A stretch of DNA of 36,394 bases from a virus. The translations under genes and the position numbers were made by a program. The stretch's first letter is position 1; the number at the start of each line of letters is the position of its first letter. Below, piece after piece: positions 9,080-23,569 of this stretch. The notes beneath the pieces are model-generated. The model was not told the origin of the DNA, made no database searches, and saw only the letters and a list, made by a program, of their open reading frames with translations. The stretch lies in IMG/VR virus record IMGVR_UViG_3300042868_004683, positions 1 to 36,394 of that record; one strand, written 5' to 3'.

Positions 9080-9403
9080 ATGGGACTGAGACAACGGCAA
9101 CGCGGGGCAGAGACCGAGCGAGAGGTCTGCAAGATCATCACGGACAAGACGGGGTGGCAGACCAATCGGATCTTGGGGCAGGCCAGAGACGGCGGGGCTG
9201 ATATCCGGCTCGCTCGGTGGGTGCTCGAGGTCAAGCGCAGGAAGTCCATCGCGGTCTACGAGTGGGTCGACCAGGCCACCGCGGCGTGTGCGCCCTACGA
9301 GATCCCGGCGGTCGTGTGCCGGGGCGACGCGCGCGAGTTCCTGGTCATCCAGCGACTGGATGACTGGCTGGCCTTGGTCAAGCCGCAGTTGCCCGAAAGA
9401 TGA
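9080..9403 (+). CDS. PD-(D/E)XK resolvase-like nuclease (Holliday junction resolvase-like)
   Basis: A 107-aa minimal restriction-endonuclease-like fold. Residues consistent with the active site are Glu11 in GAETEREVCK, Asp41 in RDGGADIRL, and Glu50-x-Lys52 in VLEVKRRK, followed by a helix YEWVDQATAA. This order and the small size match phage and archaeal-type Holliday junction resolvases and related phage PDDEXK proteins, which trim branched DNA before packaging. It lies two genes before the small terminase, and its stop overlaps the zinc-ribbon gene (ATGA). The fold call is fairly strong; the precise substrate is inferred. Confidence 0.78.
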   Translation: MGLRQRQRGAETEREVCKIITDKTGWQTNRILGQARDGGADIRLARWVLEVKRRKSIAVYEWVDQATAACAPYEIPAVVCRGDAREFLVIQRLDDWLALVKPQLPER

Positions 9404-9690
9404 AATGCCCGAAGTGCAGCCGGCCGTCTGAGGTCGTCAAGGTCTACCAGTTCGACACGGAGGCTCGACGGCGAAGAGAATGCACGGCCTGCGGGTTTCG
9501 GTTCTCCACGACCGAGCGAGTCTGGCGCCGGGTCTATGCGGATGAGAAGCGGCCGAAGTTTGAGAGACAACCGAGGCGGGTCGAGGCCGAGAGGCCGAGG
9601 CGCACCTATTCCAACTTCGACATCGTGGCGCTGGATGGCTATGACATGGACTACGAGGACGTCACGACCTACGTGCACGTGAGCGACTGA
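9400..9690 (+). CDS. NrdR-like zinc-ribbon protein lacking the ATP-cone
   Basis: The N-terminus MKCPKC...RRRRECTACGFRFSTTERV closely matches the zinc ribbon of the bacterial ribonucleotide-reductase repressor NrdR, with cysteines at 3, 6, 28 and 31 and the diagnostic RRRREC and RFxTxE stretches. NrdR uses this ribbon to bind NrdR boxes and an ATP-cone to sense nucleotides. Here, after residue 45, there is a basic linker (EKRPKFERQPRRVEAERPRR) and an acidic tail, with no ATP-cone. The protein could bind DNA at NrdR boxes without nucleotide control, or have a purely phage role. It overlaps its neighbours by 4 bp (upstream) and 1 bp (downstream). Confidence 0.75.
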   Translation: MKCPKCSRPSEVVKVYQFDTEARRRRECTACGFRFSTTERVWRRVYADEKRPKFERQPRRVEAERPRRTYSNFDIVALDGYDMDYEDVTTYVHVSD

Positions 9691-10211
9691 TGCCTGGGAC
9701 ACCAATCAAGCGCGCCAAGCGTGAGAAGGCCCAAGAGCTGATGAAGACCCAAGACTTCTGGGACCAGCTCTGGATTCACTTGGGCGAAGGTAACTCTCTG
9801 CGATCATTCACGGGAGACGGCAGCGTCGTTCCTTACTCGGTGCTGTTCGATCGCATCCAGAAGGACCCGGAATTGAGCGAGCGCTACGAGATGGTGCGCA
9901 ACGCGAGGGCGCTTGCGAATGCCGAACGCATCGAGCAGCTGGCCGAGAAGGTCGAGGCCGAGCAGATGGACCCGAACGCCGCGAAGGTGGCGATGTCTGC
10001 GCGGCAATGGCTGGCCGAGCGGATGGATGCGAAGCGATGGGGCAACAAGATCCAGCAGGACATCAAGGTGACGGACACGACGCAGCTGCACCTCGAGGCC
10101 GTGCGTAACCTGATGCGCACCGTGAGCACTCAGGAACCGGAAAAGCTGACGCGCGACACATCGTCGCGGTCGGATGCTGGCGCGCGCGACACATCTGTGG
10201 ATAACCTGTGA
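9690..10211 (+). CDS. terS: Terminase small subunit
   Basis: A 173-aa protein in the right place and of the right size for the DNA-recognition subunit of the packaging motor. The N-terminal half resembles the small-terminase HTH region (LGEGNSLRSFTGDGSVVPYSV, then FDRIQKDPELSERYEMVRNA). A long helical segment follows (ARALANAERIEQLAEKVEAE), then ARQWLAERMDAKRWGNKIQQ, typical of this phage TerS group. The ATG overlaps the previous TGA (TGATG). The last codons (GAT AAC CTG TGA) lie within the DnaA-box array, so the 3' end of the gene doubles as a regulatory or origin sequence. Confidence 0.85.
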   Translation: MPGTPIKRAKREKAQELMKTQDFWDQLWIHLGEGNSLRSFTGDGSVVPYSVLFDRIQKDPELSERYEMVRNARALANAERIEQLAEKVEAEQMDPNAAKVAMSARQWLAERMDAKRWGNKIQQDIKVTDTTQLHLEAVRNLMRTVSTQEPEKLTRDTSSRSDAGARDTSVDNL

Positions 10212-10237
10212 GTAACCTGTGGATAACCTGTGGATAA
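10196..10237. repeat. Four DnaA-box units in exact 11-bp register
   Basis: TGTGGATAA, the inverse of the consensus DnaA box TTATCCACA, occurs at 10196-10204, 10218-10226 and 10229-10237. A variant, TGTGAGTAA, is at 10207-10215. All four share the 11-bp spacing TGTGGATAACC. The first box and part of the second lie inside the 3' end of terS. All point the same way, as in DnaA-filament sites. Confidence 0.85.
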
Positions 10238-10530
10238 CTCACGGCCTGGCGATCAGCACGCGCTCGGGCACCGATGCGCAAGCGCACGCACGGCGCAAGT
10301 GCTTGATTCGCAAGGGGTTGCGGCGCGTAGTGCGTATAACACCCATTATGTTAAATCGGGGCGATTGTGACCGCCCTGCGGACAATCCCCCCCCTCAACG
10401 ACGGGGGCGCGCGTAAGTGCTTGATTTCCCTAGGGTCGGGGCGCCGGGCGATTCCGGCCGGCCGCCGACCCCCCCCCGGCGGGTGGCCCCCGGCGGGGGG
10501 GCGGCGCTTGCGTAACCCCACACGGACCGT
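10212..10530. other. Non-coding terS-terL intergenic region (candidate pac/cos or origin region)
   Basis: About 319 bp without a convincing gene. It contains the end of the DnaA-box array; a 12-bp direct repeat AAGTGCTTGATT at 10297-10308 and 10415-10426; an AT-rich patch at 10333-10356, the only one nearby; a C8 run at 10387-10394, which can pair with G5 at 10403-10407; and the extreme GC hairpin at 10469-10501. Packaging sites often lie beside terS, and an AT-rich patch near DnaA boxes may be an unwinding element; both are inferences. TATAAC at 10335-10340 lacks a well-placed -35. Confidence 0.6.
10469..10501. other. Homopolymeric C/G hairpin just upstream of terL
   Basis: A run of nine C (10469-10477) can pair with a run of seven G (10495-10501), and the inner bases pair partly around a TGG loop (10484-10486). 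Every base of both arms is G or C. The run lengths also allow a G-quadruplex on either strand. There is no T tract, so an intrinsic terminator is unlikely. Confidence 0.6.
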
Positions 10531-11937
10531 ATGAAAAATTCTGAAAACCCGTACTTCGCCTTCGTCAAACGCTACCACGCGGCCCCTGTGGCCTTCGTGG
10601 AGGAGGTCCTAGGCGTCACCCCCGACCCGTGGCAGCGCCGCCTCCTAGAGCTTCTGGCGGCCGGTGAGCGCAAGATCAGCGTCCGCTCCGGCCACGGCAC
10701 CGGCAAGTCCACCGTGGCCTCGTGGGCCATGCTCTGGTTCATGCTCACCCGCGTCCCGGTCAAGGTGGTCGTCACGGCCCCCACGGCCAGCCAGCTCTTC
10801 GACGCCCTCTTCGGCGAGTGCCGCCGCTGGGCCAAGCTCTTGCCGCCGGCGGTGGCCGAGCTGCTCGAGATCAAGTCCGACCGCATCGAGCTGAAGGCGA
10901 GCCCGGAGGAGGCCTTCATCTCGGCGCGCACCAGCCGCGCGGAGCAGCCGGACGCCCTGCAGGGCATCCACGCCGAGTATGTGCTGCTGGTGGTGGACGA
11001 GGCCCCGGGCGTGTCCGAGGCGGTCTTCGAGTCGGCGGGCGGCTCGATGTCCGGCCACAACGCCACGACGCTGCTGCTCGGCAACCCCACCCGGACGCAG
11101 GGGTACTTCTACGACACCTTCCACCGCCTGTCCGGCGAGTGGAAGAACCTGCACGTGAGCTGCCTTGACTCGCCCCGGGTCTCGGAGGATTACATCGCCG
11201 AGATGTCGAGCCGGTACGGGGAGGGCAGCAACGCCTACCGGGTGCGCGTGCTGGGCGAGTTCCCGGTGGCGGACGACGACACGCTGATCGGGCTTGAGCT
11301 CGCCCAGTCGGCGGTGGACCGGGACGTGGTGCAGAACCCGGGCGCGCCGGTGCTGTGGGGCCTGGACGTGGCGCGCTTCGGCGCGGACTCCTCGGCGCTA
11401 TGCAAGCGCCAGGCGAACGTGGTCGTGGCGCCGGTGAAGACATGGAAGGGCCTCGACCTGATGGCGCTGACGGGGGCGGTGATGCACGAGTGGGAGAGCA
11501 CCGACCACCGCGACCGCCCGGTCGAGATACTGGTGGACAGCATCGGCCTTGGCGCGGGCGTGGTGGACCGGCTGCGGGAGCTGAAGCTGCCGGCGCGCGG
11601 GATCAACGTCGGCGAGTCGCCGGCCTTTAAGGGGCAGTACATGAACCTGCGCGCGGAGCTCTGGGGCAAGGCGAAGGCGTGGCTGGAGGCGCGCGACTGC
11701 AAGCTGCCGCGCGACGAGCGCCTGGTGAATGAGCTATCCTCGCCGCGCTACTCGTTCATGTCGAACGGGAAGCTGCGCCTCGAGGGCAAGGACGACATGA
11801 AGCGCCGTGGCCTTGCGTCGCCCGACGTGGCGGACGCGTTCGTGCTGACCTTTGCGTCTGAGGCGGCGACGGGCGGCGGCGTGTACGCGCCGACCTGGCA
11901 GAAGGCGATGAAGCGGCAGATCCGGGGTGTGGTATGA
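10531..11937 (+). CDS. terL: Terminase large subunit
   Basis: The packaging motor ATPase and nuclease, 468 aa. The ATPase domain has Walker A SGHGTGKST (53-61), Walker B VLLVVDEA (151-158, with Asp156-Glu157) and coupling motif LLLGNPTRTQG (181-191). The C-terminal RNase H-like nuclease has its three acidic residues in WGLDVARFG (Asp279), EILVDSIGLG (Asp336) and ASPDVADAF (Asp432 or 435). It translocates the genome into proheads through the portal and cuts concatemers. The ATG follows a weak GGA site after the long intergenic region. Its stop overlaps the next gene (ATGA), so the following carbohydrate genes are co-transcribed with packaging genes. Confidence 0.96.
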   Translation: MKNSENPYFAFVKRYHAAPVAFVEEVLGVTPDPWQRRLLELLAAGERKISVRSGHGTGKSTVASWAMLWFMLTRVPVKVVVTAPTASQLFDALFGECRRWAKLLPPAVAELLEIKSDRIELKASPEEAFISARTSRAEQPDALQGIHAEYVLLVVDEAPGVSEAVFESAGGSMSGHNATTLLLGNPTRTQGYFYDTFHRLSGEWKNLHVSCLDSPRVSEDYIAEMSSRYGEGSNAYRVRVLGEFPVADDDTLIGLELAQSAVDRDVVQNPGAPVLWGLDVARFGADSSALCKRQANVVVAPVKTWKGLDLMALTGAVMHEWESTDHRDRPVEILVDSIGLGAGVVDRLRELKLPARGINVGESPAFKGQYMNLRAELWGKAKAWLEARDCKLPRDERLVNELSSPRYSFMSNGKLRLEGKDDMKRRGLASPDVADAFVLTFASEAATGGGVYAPTWQKAMKRQIRGVV

Positions 11938-12605
11938 ACTGGCGGGATTTCTTTTTGGTGGACCCGTACTCGGGCGCGAAGATAGTCGAGCACGACCTGC
12001 AGGGCTGGGGGTCGGACGACCCGATGTTCGAGCAGGTCCTGGCGGCGGTGCGCCCCACGACCATCATCGAGGTGGGCTCGTGGAAGGGGCGCTCGGCGGC
12101 TAACATGATGGCGATTTGCAAGCGCCTGGGGCTCGACGCGCGCCTATTGTGCATCGACACCTGGCTCGGGTCGCACGAGAATTATGCGCGCCACGACGGG
12201 GACAATCGCTGGCTGCACGAGGCGCTGCGGCTGCACGCGGGCTACCCTCGGCTGCACGAGCTGTTCCTGTCGAACATGGTGCACCTTGAGCTGACCGAGC
12301 GCGTGACCCCCCTCCCCCTGCCGGCGACGATCGCGGCGCGGGTGGTGGCCGAAAAAAATATCGTGGCGGACGTAATCTACATCGACGGCTCGCACGACTA
12401 TGAGGATTGCAAGGCGGACCTAGCAAACTACTGGCCGCTCCTGCGCCGGGGCGGGATTCTGTTCGGGGACGACTACCAGGCGTGGCCCGGCGTGACGCGC
12501 GCGGTGGACGAGTTCTGCGATGCGCACGGGCTGCACCGTGTGGCGGTGCGCCGCTCGGGCAAGTTCGCATTTGGCAAGGACTGCGGCGTGGAGGGAATCG
12601 AGTGA
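11934..12605 (+). CDS. Class I SAM-dependent methyltransferase (Methyltransf_24-like)
   Basis: A Rossmann-fold methyltransferase of 223 aa. Motif I is IIEVGSWKGRSA (44-55), the acidic end of strand 2 is LLCIDTWLG (71-79), and VIYIDGSHDYEDCKADL (148-163) with LRRGGILFGDDY follows. This pattern is that of the Methyltransf_24 family, common in glycan-modifying clusters, where members methylate sugars or related small substrates. The gene overlaps terL and the following GT25-type gene by 4 bp each. Such genes are not part of the normal packaging module, so it looks like an inserted accessory gene. The substrate is unknown; a sugar hydroxyl is likely from context. Confidence 0.82.
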   Translation: MNWRDFFLVDPYSGAKIVEHDLQGWGSDDPMFEQVLAAVRPTTIIEVGSWKGRSAANMMAICKRLGLDARLLCIDTWLGSHENYARHDGDNRWLHEALRLHAGYPRLHELFLSNMVHLELTERVTPLPLPATIAARVVAEKNIVADVIYIDGSHDYEDCKADLANYWPLLRRGGILFGDDYQAWPGVTRAVDEFCDAHGLHRVAVRRSGKFAFGKDCGVEGIE

Positions 12606-22586: not shown

Positions 22587-22907
22587 ATGCAATCTTCGGG
22601 CAAGAAGCTTTTCGACTTTGACCCGACGACAGGCACCACGAAGTGGTGGCACTACGACGCCGACCGTGACGAGGCGACCATCGAGACGGTCTTCGAGGTC
22701 GGCGACATCGTAGAGCAGAACAAGGCCCAGTATTCAGCGACCGACGAGAGGACGCGCTGGGGCGAGTGGAGCAAGGTGGCCTCGATACCGATGCCGTTGT
22801 TCTACCGGCTAAAGAGCCAGGGCATCGTTGACGACCCGAAGAAGATGAAGGCCTGGCTGAACGACGCAGACAACAGGTTTTTTAGAACACGACCGGGGCG
22901 CGTATGA
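22587..22907 (+). CDS. Conserved phage protein downstream of capsid (106 aa)
   Basis: A 106-aa soluble protein: KLFDFDPTTGTTKWWHYDAD, then VFEVGDIVEQNKAQYSATDE and IPMPLFYRLKSQGI, and ending with AWLNDADNRFFRTRPGRV. This PMPLxYRLKSQG...WLNDxDNRxFRTRPG pattern is a conserved small protein next to capsid genes in many podoviruses; its role is not known. GTTGAGGTAAAT gives a fair ribosome site. It overlaps the next gene by ATGA. Confidence 0.78.
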   Translation: MQSSGKKLFDFDPTTGTTKWWHYDADRDEATIETVFEVGDIVEQNKAQYSATDERTRWGEWSKVASIPMPLFYRLKSQGIVDDPKKMKAWLNDADNRFFRTRPGRV

Positions 22908-23569
22908 GCCGCTCGGTCGCAATTTTAGTCCCAGCAAGGGACACGGTGATGACCTCGTTCGCCTATGACCTAGCGCGAGCGATGTCGTTCCACACCGCGA
23001 CAACAGACGACCGTGTGCTGCTTTACACCTCGCACGGGACTCTGATCGCCTCTCAAAGGATGGAGCTTGCGCGGCAGGCTCTGGAGGAGAAGGCGGACTA
23101 TCTCCTCTGGCTTGACTCAGACATGCGCTTCCCGCGGGAAACCATCGGGCACCTCATGTTGCGAGACAAGCCCATCGTGGCCGCGAATTATGCGACCCGT
23201 CGGATGCCGGTCAAGCCGGTGGCGATGATGGACAACAACGGGGAGATCGGGCGGGTGTATACCGCGCCGGACTCCGAGGGGCTACAGCCGGTGGACTACA
23301 TCGGCATGGGCGTGATGATGGTGAAGCGCGAGGTGTTCGAGAAGGTGGAGGCGCCGTGGTTTGCGATCCCCTACTCCACCATCGGGAATCACTACATCGG
23401 CGAGGACGTGTTTTTCTGCCGCAAGGCGCGCGAGGCGGGGTACGAGGTACTCGTGGACCATGACCTCTCGCACCAGGTGCGGCACATCGGGACCTTCGAG
23501 TATTCACACGAAGGCGCATGGGCGATGAAGGAACAGGTGGATGGCCCTCAACTCATACAGCGCGCTTAG
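22904..23569 (+). CDS. Glycosyltransferase-like protein (GT-A fold, family 2-like)
   Basis: A 221-aa protein with the GT-A nucleotide-sugar-binding pattern: an N-terminal SVAILVPARDTVMTSFAYDL, LIASQRMELARQAL, then YLLWLDSDMRFP with the DxD-type motif (Asp71-Ser-Asp73). A YIGMGVMMVKREVF segment and a GEDVFFCRKAREAGYEV acceptor-side motif follow, as in family-2-like phage glycosyltransferases. It probably adds a sugar to a virion or host component. It sits between a capsid-linked gene and the adaptor, the second glycosyltransferase in the structural region. Overlaps: 4 bp upstream, 29 bp downstream. Confidence 0.83.
   Translation: MSRSVAILVPARDTVMTSFAYDLARAMSFHTATTDDRVLLYTSHGTLIASQRMELARQALEEKADYLLWLDSDMRFPRETIGHLMLRDKPIVAANYATRRMPVKPVAMMDNNGEIGRVYTAPDSEGLQPVDYIGMGVMMVKREVFEKVEAPWFAIPYSTIGNHYIGEDVFFCRKAREAGYEVLVDHDLSHQVRHIGTFEYSHEGAWAMKEQVDGPQLIQRA

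Follow-up and report, generated by a model that had tools for sequence, protein, structure and literature searches.

In phage lambda, the host protein IHF bends the DNA at cosB so that the small terminase subunit TerS can dock; IHF helps packaging, which is not strictly dependent on it, and the yield without IHF is ~30% (PMC4856287). For phage T5, repeats and DnaA boxes have been described in the injection stop signal, within the terminal repeat region (PMC13250531). These have so far been isolated textbook facts, and no paper on DnaA, Fur, or Zur boxes in phage packaging sites was found in the open literature (subscription journals were outside this scope). Sinorhizobium phage phiM5 has an annotated 357-bp direct terminal repeat, which takes in the last part of terS together with a C-run hairpin, stops 13 bp past the hairpin, and contains no DnaA, Zur, Fur, or IHF box.

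The window, by which we mean the whole 36.4-kb stretch of viral DNA analyzed here, is a circularly assembled genome, since its ends share an 81-bp overlap. The genes for a primase-helicase, a RusA-like nuclease, an Sf6-like TerS, TerL, a portal, and an SU10-type capsid protein run rightward, and those for an exonuclease and a methyltransferase run leftward. Neither an integrase nor homologues of DnaA, Fur/Zur, or IHF were recognized among the scanned ORFs (some small ORFs lay outside the scan), and no phage RNA polymerase and no two-step transfer genes were recognized in the window phage. Its TerL is 54% identical to that of phiM5, and a TerL search of bacterial genomes found no relatives. A small protein with an NrdR-type zinc ribbon (PF22811) is encoded at 9400-9690, immediately 5' of terS, and genes of sugar-modifying type, coding for a TylF/CmcI-like methyltransferase and a glycosyltransferase-like protein, are found inside the structural operon (11934-12605 and 22904-23569). 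The locus studied here runs from terS to terL and contains the following features.

9690-10211, plus strand: terS, Sf6-type small terminase subunit of 173 amino acids (PHROG 1482, E 2e-19; PF20901, E 6e-15)
10195-10238, plus strand: slot 1, array of four 11-bp units (CTGTGGATAAC), assigned by exact match and by the Zur or Fur box of relatives at the same slot
10296-10308, plus strand: IHF consensus site 1 (CAAGTGCTTGATT), the first of two direct repeats, assigned by exact match to the consensus and by spacing
10335-10350, no strand: conserved imperfect palindrome TATAACACCCATTATG, reading ATAAT-ACCC-ATTAT in relatives
10414-10426, plus strand: IHF consensus site 2 (TAAGTGCTTGATT), assigned by exact match to the consensus and by comparison with relatives
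10469-10501, plus strand: C-run followed by a GC-rich hairpin, counterpart of the hairpin that ends the phiM5 terminal repeat
10510-10522, plus strand: conserved GCGTAACCCCACA, putative right boundary of a direct terminal repeat, placed by position relative to phiM5
10531-11937, plus strand: terL, large terminase subunit of 468 amino acids (64% identity to the annotated TerL of MW202879)

Slot 1 of the window holds three exact DnaA boxes, TGTGGATAA (TTATCCACA on the other strand), at 10196-10204, 10218-10226, and 10229-10237, and one variant box, TGTGAGTAA, with two mismatches at 10207-10215. The coordinates confirm three perfect boxes and one variant in 11-bp steps and a single orientation, as reported in a preliminary description of this DNA, and the four form a closely and regularly spaced cluster of matches to TTATNCACA. 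No other exact DnaA box occurs in the window; after dinucleotide shuffling, the mean was 0.05 exact boxes per window, and no shuffle placed two of them within 40 bp of each other. The units can be regarded as DnaA boxes at the level of motif matches, and the proposed tie between the array and the packaging region is borne out at the same level. The 11-bp register is strict in the window and looser across the relatives, where the first step is often 12 bp. The first box had been placed in the stop region of terS; box 1 lies within the final terS codons, and the stop codon (10209-10211) lies inside box 2. This overlap is incidental, since in relatives such as L001 the array comes only after the terS stop.

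To compare the locus with related phages, we used TerL to search IMG/VR, which yielded 80 close relatives (87-100% amino-acid identity), mostly on short contigs, and further scans added more. Judging from the sample numbers, the relatives presumably come from freshwater-type habitats. Slot 1 was readable in 82 loci, and a host-regulator box occupies it in 80 of them. These boxes are of three types: a DnaA array (43 loci), a palindrome, TGTTATAACATAACA, that we assign to Zur (22), and a putative Fur box, AATGAGAATNATTCGCATT (15); the two other loci have no box. Conservation of the array in related phages thus extends to 43 of the 82 loci, with a Zur or Fur box instead in 37. On a tree of TerL DNA, the type of slot 1 changes at least nine times: the DnaA type looks like one clade, and the Zur and Fur types switch repeatedly among close relatives. 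Among 12 long relatives, the Zur motif is confined to the gap, and so are exact DnaA boxes, with one exception. The array is one state of a modular slot. We note that slot 1 of relatives with a Zur box, a Fur box, or no box (e.g., L033, L055, and L042) also contains one or two TTTATGCAC-like sites, possibly weak DnaA boxes, and that TTATGCACC also follows the DnaA arrays of the unrelated record G013. In a sister clade (TerL identity 65%; L485, L519, and L588), a Fur box and a C-run hairpin are both found upstream of terS, so box and hairpin move together.

The palindrome is a predicted Zur box because the exact 19-bp motif precedes zinc-regulon genes in bacteria. In bacterial genomes it is mostly found 28-90 bp before genes of zinc-regulon type, including those for CobW/COG0523, ZnuA, an ABC ATPase, TonB receptors, TonB, a DksA-like protein, and DUF1826, and a few of its neighbors are unlike the usual zinc regulon. 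In the phage loci, conservation of the Zur box is 98%, compared with 58-65% in the 40-bp flanks. The classical 19-bp Fur box has the consensus GATAATGATAATCATTATC, and the putative Fur box, AATGAGAATCATTCGC, agrees with it at 13 of 16 positions when aligned by hand.

The gap between terS and terL is ~330 bp in length and has a single layout across the relatives. The terS stop is followed by slot 1, a direct repeat, TATAATACCCATTATG, and a second direct repeat or slot 2, and then by the C-run with its GC-rich hairpin, GCGTAACCCCACA, and terL. The direct repeats are the only two exact IHF sites (YAANNNNTTGATW) in the window, where 0.15 are expected. In some relatives IHF site 2 is replaced by, or joined with, a second DnaA or Fur box in slot 2. 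Of 85 loci counted, 19 have slot 2 occupied by a DnaA array, by a Fur-like box, or by both. IHF site 1 lies 38-39 bp from the conserved palindrome in nearly all relatives. This palindrome belongs to a near-invariant element, ATAAT-ACCC-ATTAT(G), and is a candidate TerS site. An AT-rich patch had been described at 10333-10356; it is real, and it coincides with the window copy of this strongly conserved element. The two IHF sites, slot 2, the exchange with Zur and Fur boxes, and the terminus-like C-run hairpin were absent from that description. The predicted fold of the C-run hairpin is not better than those of shuffled sequences (z -1.35), and the idea of an unusually stable fold was rejected.

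Several lines of comparison suggest that this gap contains a genome end. When the offset between hairpin and repeat end in phiM5 is transferred to the window, the end falls in GCGTAACCCCACA. By analogy, the terS-terL gap is probably a concatemer junction or a direct terminal repeat. A repeat extending over the array may exist, by analogy with phiM5 and with terminal direct overlaps of two unrelated records: an overlap of 221 bp in G013 contains seven DnaA boxes, and one of 233 bp in G130 contains a Fur box and an IHF site (TAAGTCATTGATT) and ends at a C-run, and both could be assembly overlaps rather than true repeats. Within the family, the end overlaps of 81 bp in the window and 127 bp in a relative (G001) were rejected as proof of termini, as they are k-mer-like and probably reflect assembler k-mers.

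We also surveyed the boxes in unrelated phages, starting for DnaA from 50 IMG/VR records with a three-unit array, 34 of which contain TerL. The array was located within 2 kb upstream of TerL in 17 of 34 records (3.8 expected, simulated P <1e-5). These 17 arrays lie 0.6-2.0 kb upstream of TerL and are on the same strand in 13 cases. Zur boxes (10 of 27, 3.7 expected, P 0.001) and Fur boxes (10 of 32, 3.1 expected, P 0.0004) are also enriched there, and the three box types together cluster 0.5-2 kb upstream of TerL. Most enrichments in short records are phylogenetically non-independent; when only records of 20 kb or more are considered, numbers fall but the trend is the same, with 5 for DnaA, 2 for Zur, and 4 for Fur against 0.8, 0.7, and 1.1 expected. 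IHF consensus sites were found within 200 bp of DnaA arrays in 15 cases (5.1 expected) and of Fur boxes in 21 (7.6 expected) at unrelated loci; for Zur boxes the excess was not significant (7 vs 4.2, P 0.12). The controls were position-matched within loci and unmatched for AT-rich intergenic DNA, and the records are non-independent. In 15 of 50 records the DnaA array is no more than 350 bp away from a contig end (2.2 expected), an enrichment to which assembly breaks in a hypervariable region could contribute, and the excess of Zur boxes at contig ends was not significant (5 vs 2.3 expected, P 0.07).

Described phages show similar positions. DnaA boxes are found inside the PhageTerm repeat of Siara and inside the terminal repeat of BF23, at a distance of ~50-90 bp from the right end in Arthrobacter phages (e.g., Seahorse and Tiff81), near the record ends of BD1 and VB_Ship_A7, and, in T7-like Berlinviruses, either in the interval from terL to gene 0.3 or where the record ends. 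In two 120-kb records of T5-like size (G119 and G151), Fur boxes are present ~10 kb from one end and also close to the opposite end, as if within a T5-like long terminal repeat. DnaA-box arrays were also seen in noncoding DNA of the unrelated microviruses PQ006258, MG945484, and KT264804. Among distant TerL relatives chosen regardless of boxes, 1 of 77 carries a box in the 1.5 kb upstream of TerL. The trait is thus not ancestral to the wider terminase clade; it is lineage-specific and repeatedly acquired rather than universal. This scarcity and the boxless phiM5 repeat indicate that packaging as such does not depend on the boxes.

We tentatively favor, with confidence a little short of even, the reading that the array is a host-factor nucleoprotein site at a genome terminus or concatemer junction, which aids packaging or end handling. 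Within the family, this reading is based on the 80 occupied slots, the type changes, the conservation of the Zur box, and the rigid spacing of IHF site and core; outside it, on the position of the phiM5 repeat, the precedent of IHF at lambda cosB, and the clustering of boxes near TerL, contig ends, and terminal repeats in unrelated phages. What the sequences show is a set of elements that are conserved and exchanged in the family and that accompany terminases and genome ends in unrelated phages; from this we infer binding of host proteins, a terminus position, and a role in packaging. In the proposed mechanism, host DnaA (Zur or Fur in relatives) would bind slot 1, and host IHF would bend the DNA at one or two fixed sites. 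The bound factors would assemble into a nucleoprotein complex next to the site of terminase cutting, presumed to be at the C-run hairpin and GCGTAACCCCACA, and this complex might help the Sf6-like TerS/TerL to recognize and cut the junction, or might otherwise handle the end. DnaA, Zur, and Fur would then be additional or alternative architectural proteins. The boxless phiM5 repeat, the scarcity of boxes among distant relatives, and the two relatives without a slot-1 box count against this reading.

The main rival to a packaging role is one in DNA entry, where a host protein on the incoming terminal repeat would act as a stop or anchor (a ratchet) in ejection, or as a shield against exonucleases. 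Any abundant site-specific protein could do this, which fits the exchange among DnaA, Zur, and Fur. Several phages have boxes close to a physical end, and in some of them the neighboring genes are early rather than late (Siara and BF23). For T5, a description of the injection stop signal notes an abundance of repeats and DnaA boxes (PMC13250531), but equating the BF23 cluster (~5.4 kb) with the stop signal would be an assumption. The rigid arrangement of IHF site, core, and C-run beside terL resembles a packaging site instead, and we consider an entry role unlikely.

A transcription switch, in which the boxes would repress a promoter of terL and the structural genes until phage copies exceed the host repressor, seems to us distinctly improbable. 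Fur and Zur are repressors, and the boxes flank a TATAAT-like element just 5' of the late operon. However, a scan of the gap for promoters and terminators found nothing, the ATAAT-ACCC-ATTAT element contains no recognizable promoter, and no sigma-70 promoter was found in 9900-10700, which makes transcription control less likely. The TATAAT-like element reads TATAAC in the window lineage, the boxes are ~60-100 bp away from it without overlap, and elsewhere boxes precede early genes.

The preliminary description had proposed that the phage recruits host DnaA for replication. An oriC-like origin is indeed composed of DnaA boxes, IHF sites, and an AT-rich element, and the slot of Zur and Fur relatives retains one or two weak DnaA-like TTATGCAC sites, which the DnaA lineage does not have. 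The boxes are not kept as an origin would be, since Zur or Fur boxes replace the array, and strong DnaA boxes are missing in about half of the relatives; the phage also has its own primase-helicase. DnaA-driven replication therefore has a poor chance of being correct, and this proposal was not supported. The minimum of the cumulative GC skew lies elsewhere, near 7 kb; this is weak evidence against an origin here, and because the skew tracks gene orientation, we discarded it as evidence on the origin. A titration decoy, in which phage copies soak up DnaA, Zur, or Fur and so disturb the host cycle or derepress metal uptake, is just as doubtful: multicopy Fur and DnaA boxes titrate their proteins and the box types are interchangeable, but the fixed place by the IHF sites and the terminase gene would be left unexplained, as would single Zur boxes.

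Returning to the terminus and packaging reading, our observations suggest that host regulators are recruited interchangeably by phages for marking or handling the chromosome end. In the family described here, a single slot next to IHF sites alternates among DnaA, Zur, and Fur boxes, and unrelated phages have these boxes in terminase regions and at ends. A broader proposal, which we regard as possible and more probably wrong than right, is that unrelated tailed phages have independently equipped their genome ends with IHF sites and with interchangeable docking sites for the abundant host regulators DnaA, Zur, and Fur. Which protein binds would then matter little, because any tightly bound host protein may serve as an architectural clamp, roadblock, or anchor for packaging or entry. 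If true, interchangeable docking would tie the metal or replication status of the host to the handling of the phage chromosome. It would also offer a general rule for phage ends and a sequence handle for predicting termini in metagenomic phages, make it possible to link phages to hosts via regulators, and open the old puzzle of DnaA boxes at phage ends to testing.

Compared with known systems, the locus resembles oriC-type clusters in that its boxes run head to tail, separated by 2 bp, and are accompanied by an IHF site and an AT-rich element, but Zur and Fur boxes substitute in half of the relatives. The T5 repeat is ~10 kb in length and carries pre-early genes, unlike the window with no recognized two-step transfer genes. 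At a T7-type concatemer junction, too, a terminal repeat flanked by short tandem repeats adjoins a terminase gene, and the Berlinviruses P483, nasanit, and VB_Ship_A7 carry DnaA-box arrays at such a junction. The window phage differs in its lack of a recognized phage RNA polymerase, and to our knowledge IHF sites and metal-regulator boxes are no part of the T7 junction. phiM5 resembles the window in its TerL and in a repeat that spans the end of terS and the C-run hairpin before terL, and differs in having no boxes. Lambda cosB, with its R sites and IHF site I1 next to cosN, differs in that the window family uses DnaA, Zur, and Fur boxes in interchangeable slots, its TerS is of Sf6 type, and the window phage is probably a terminal-repeat phage, as phiM5 suggests, whereas lambda has cohesive ends. 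In both, compact noncoding DNA with one or more IHF sites adjoins the terminase genes: at the level of the consensus, predicted IHF sites lie in the putative packaging region of the window, near the presumed cut site. In cosB, TerS-binding R sites flank the IHF site; in the window, the rigidly placed palindrome 39 bp from IHF site 1 is a candidate for such a site. In both, the host factor would be helpful rather than universal.
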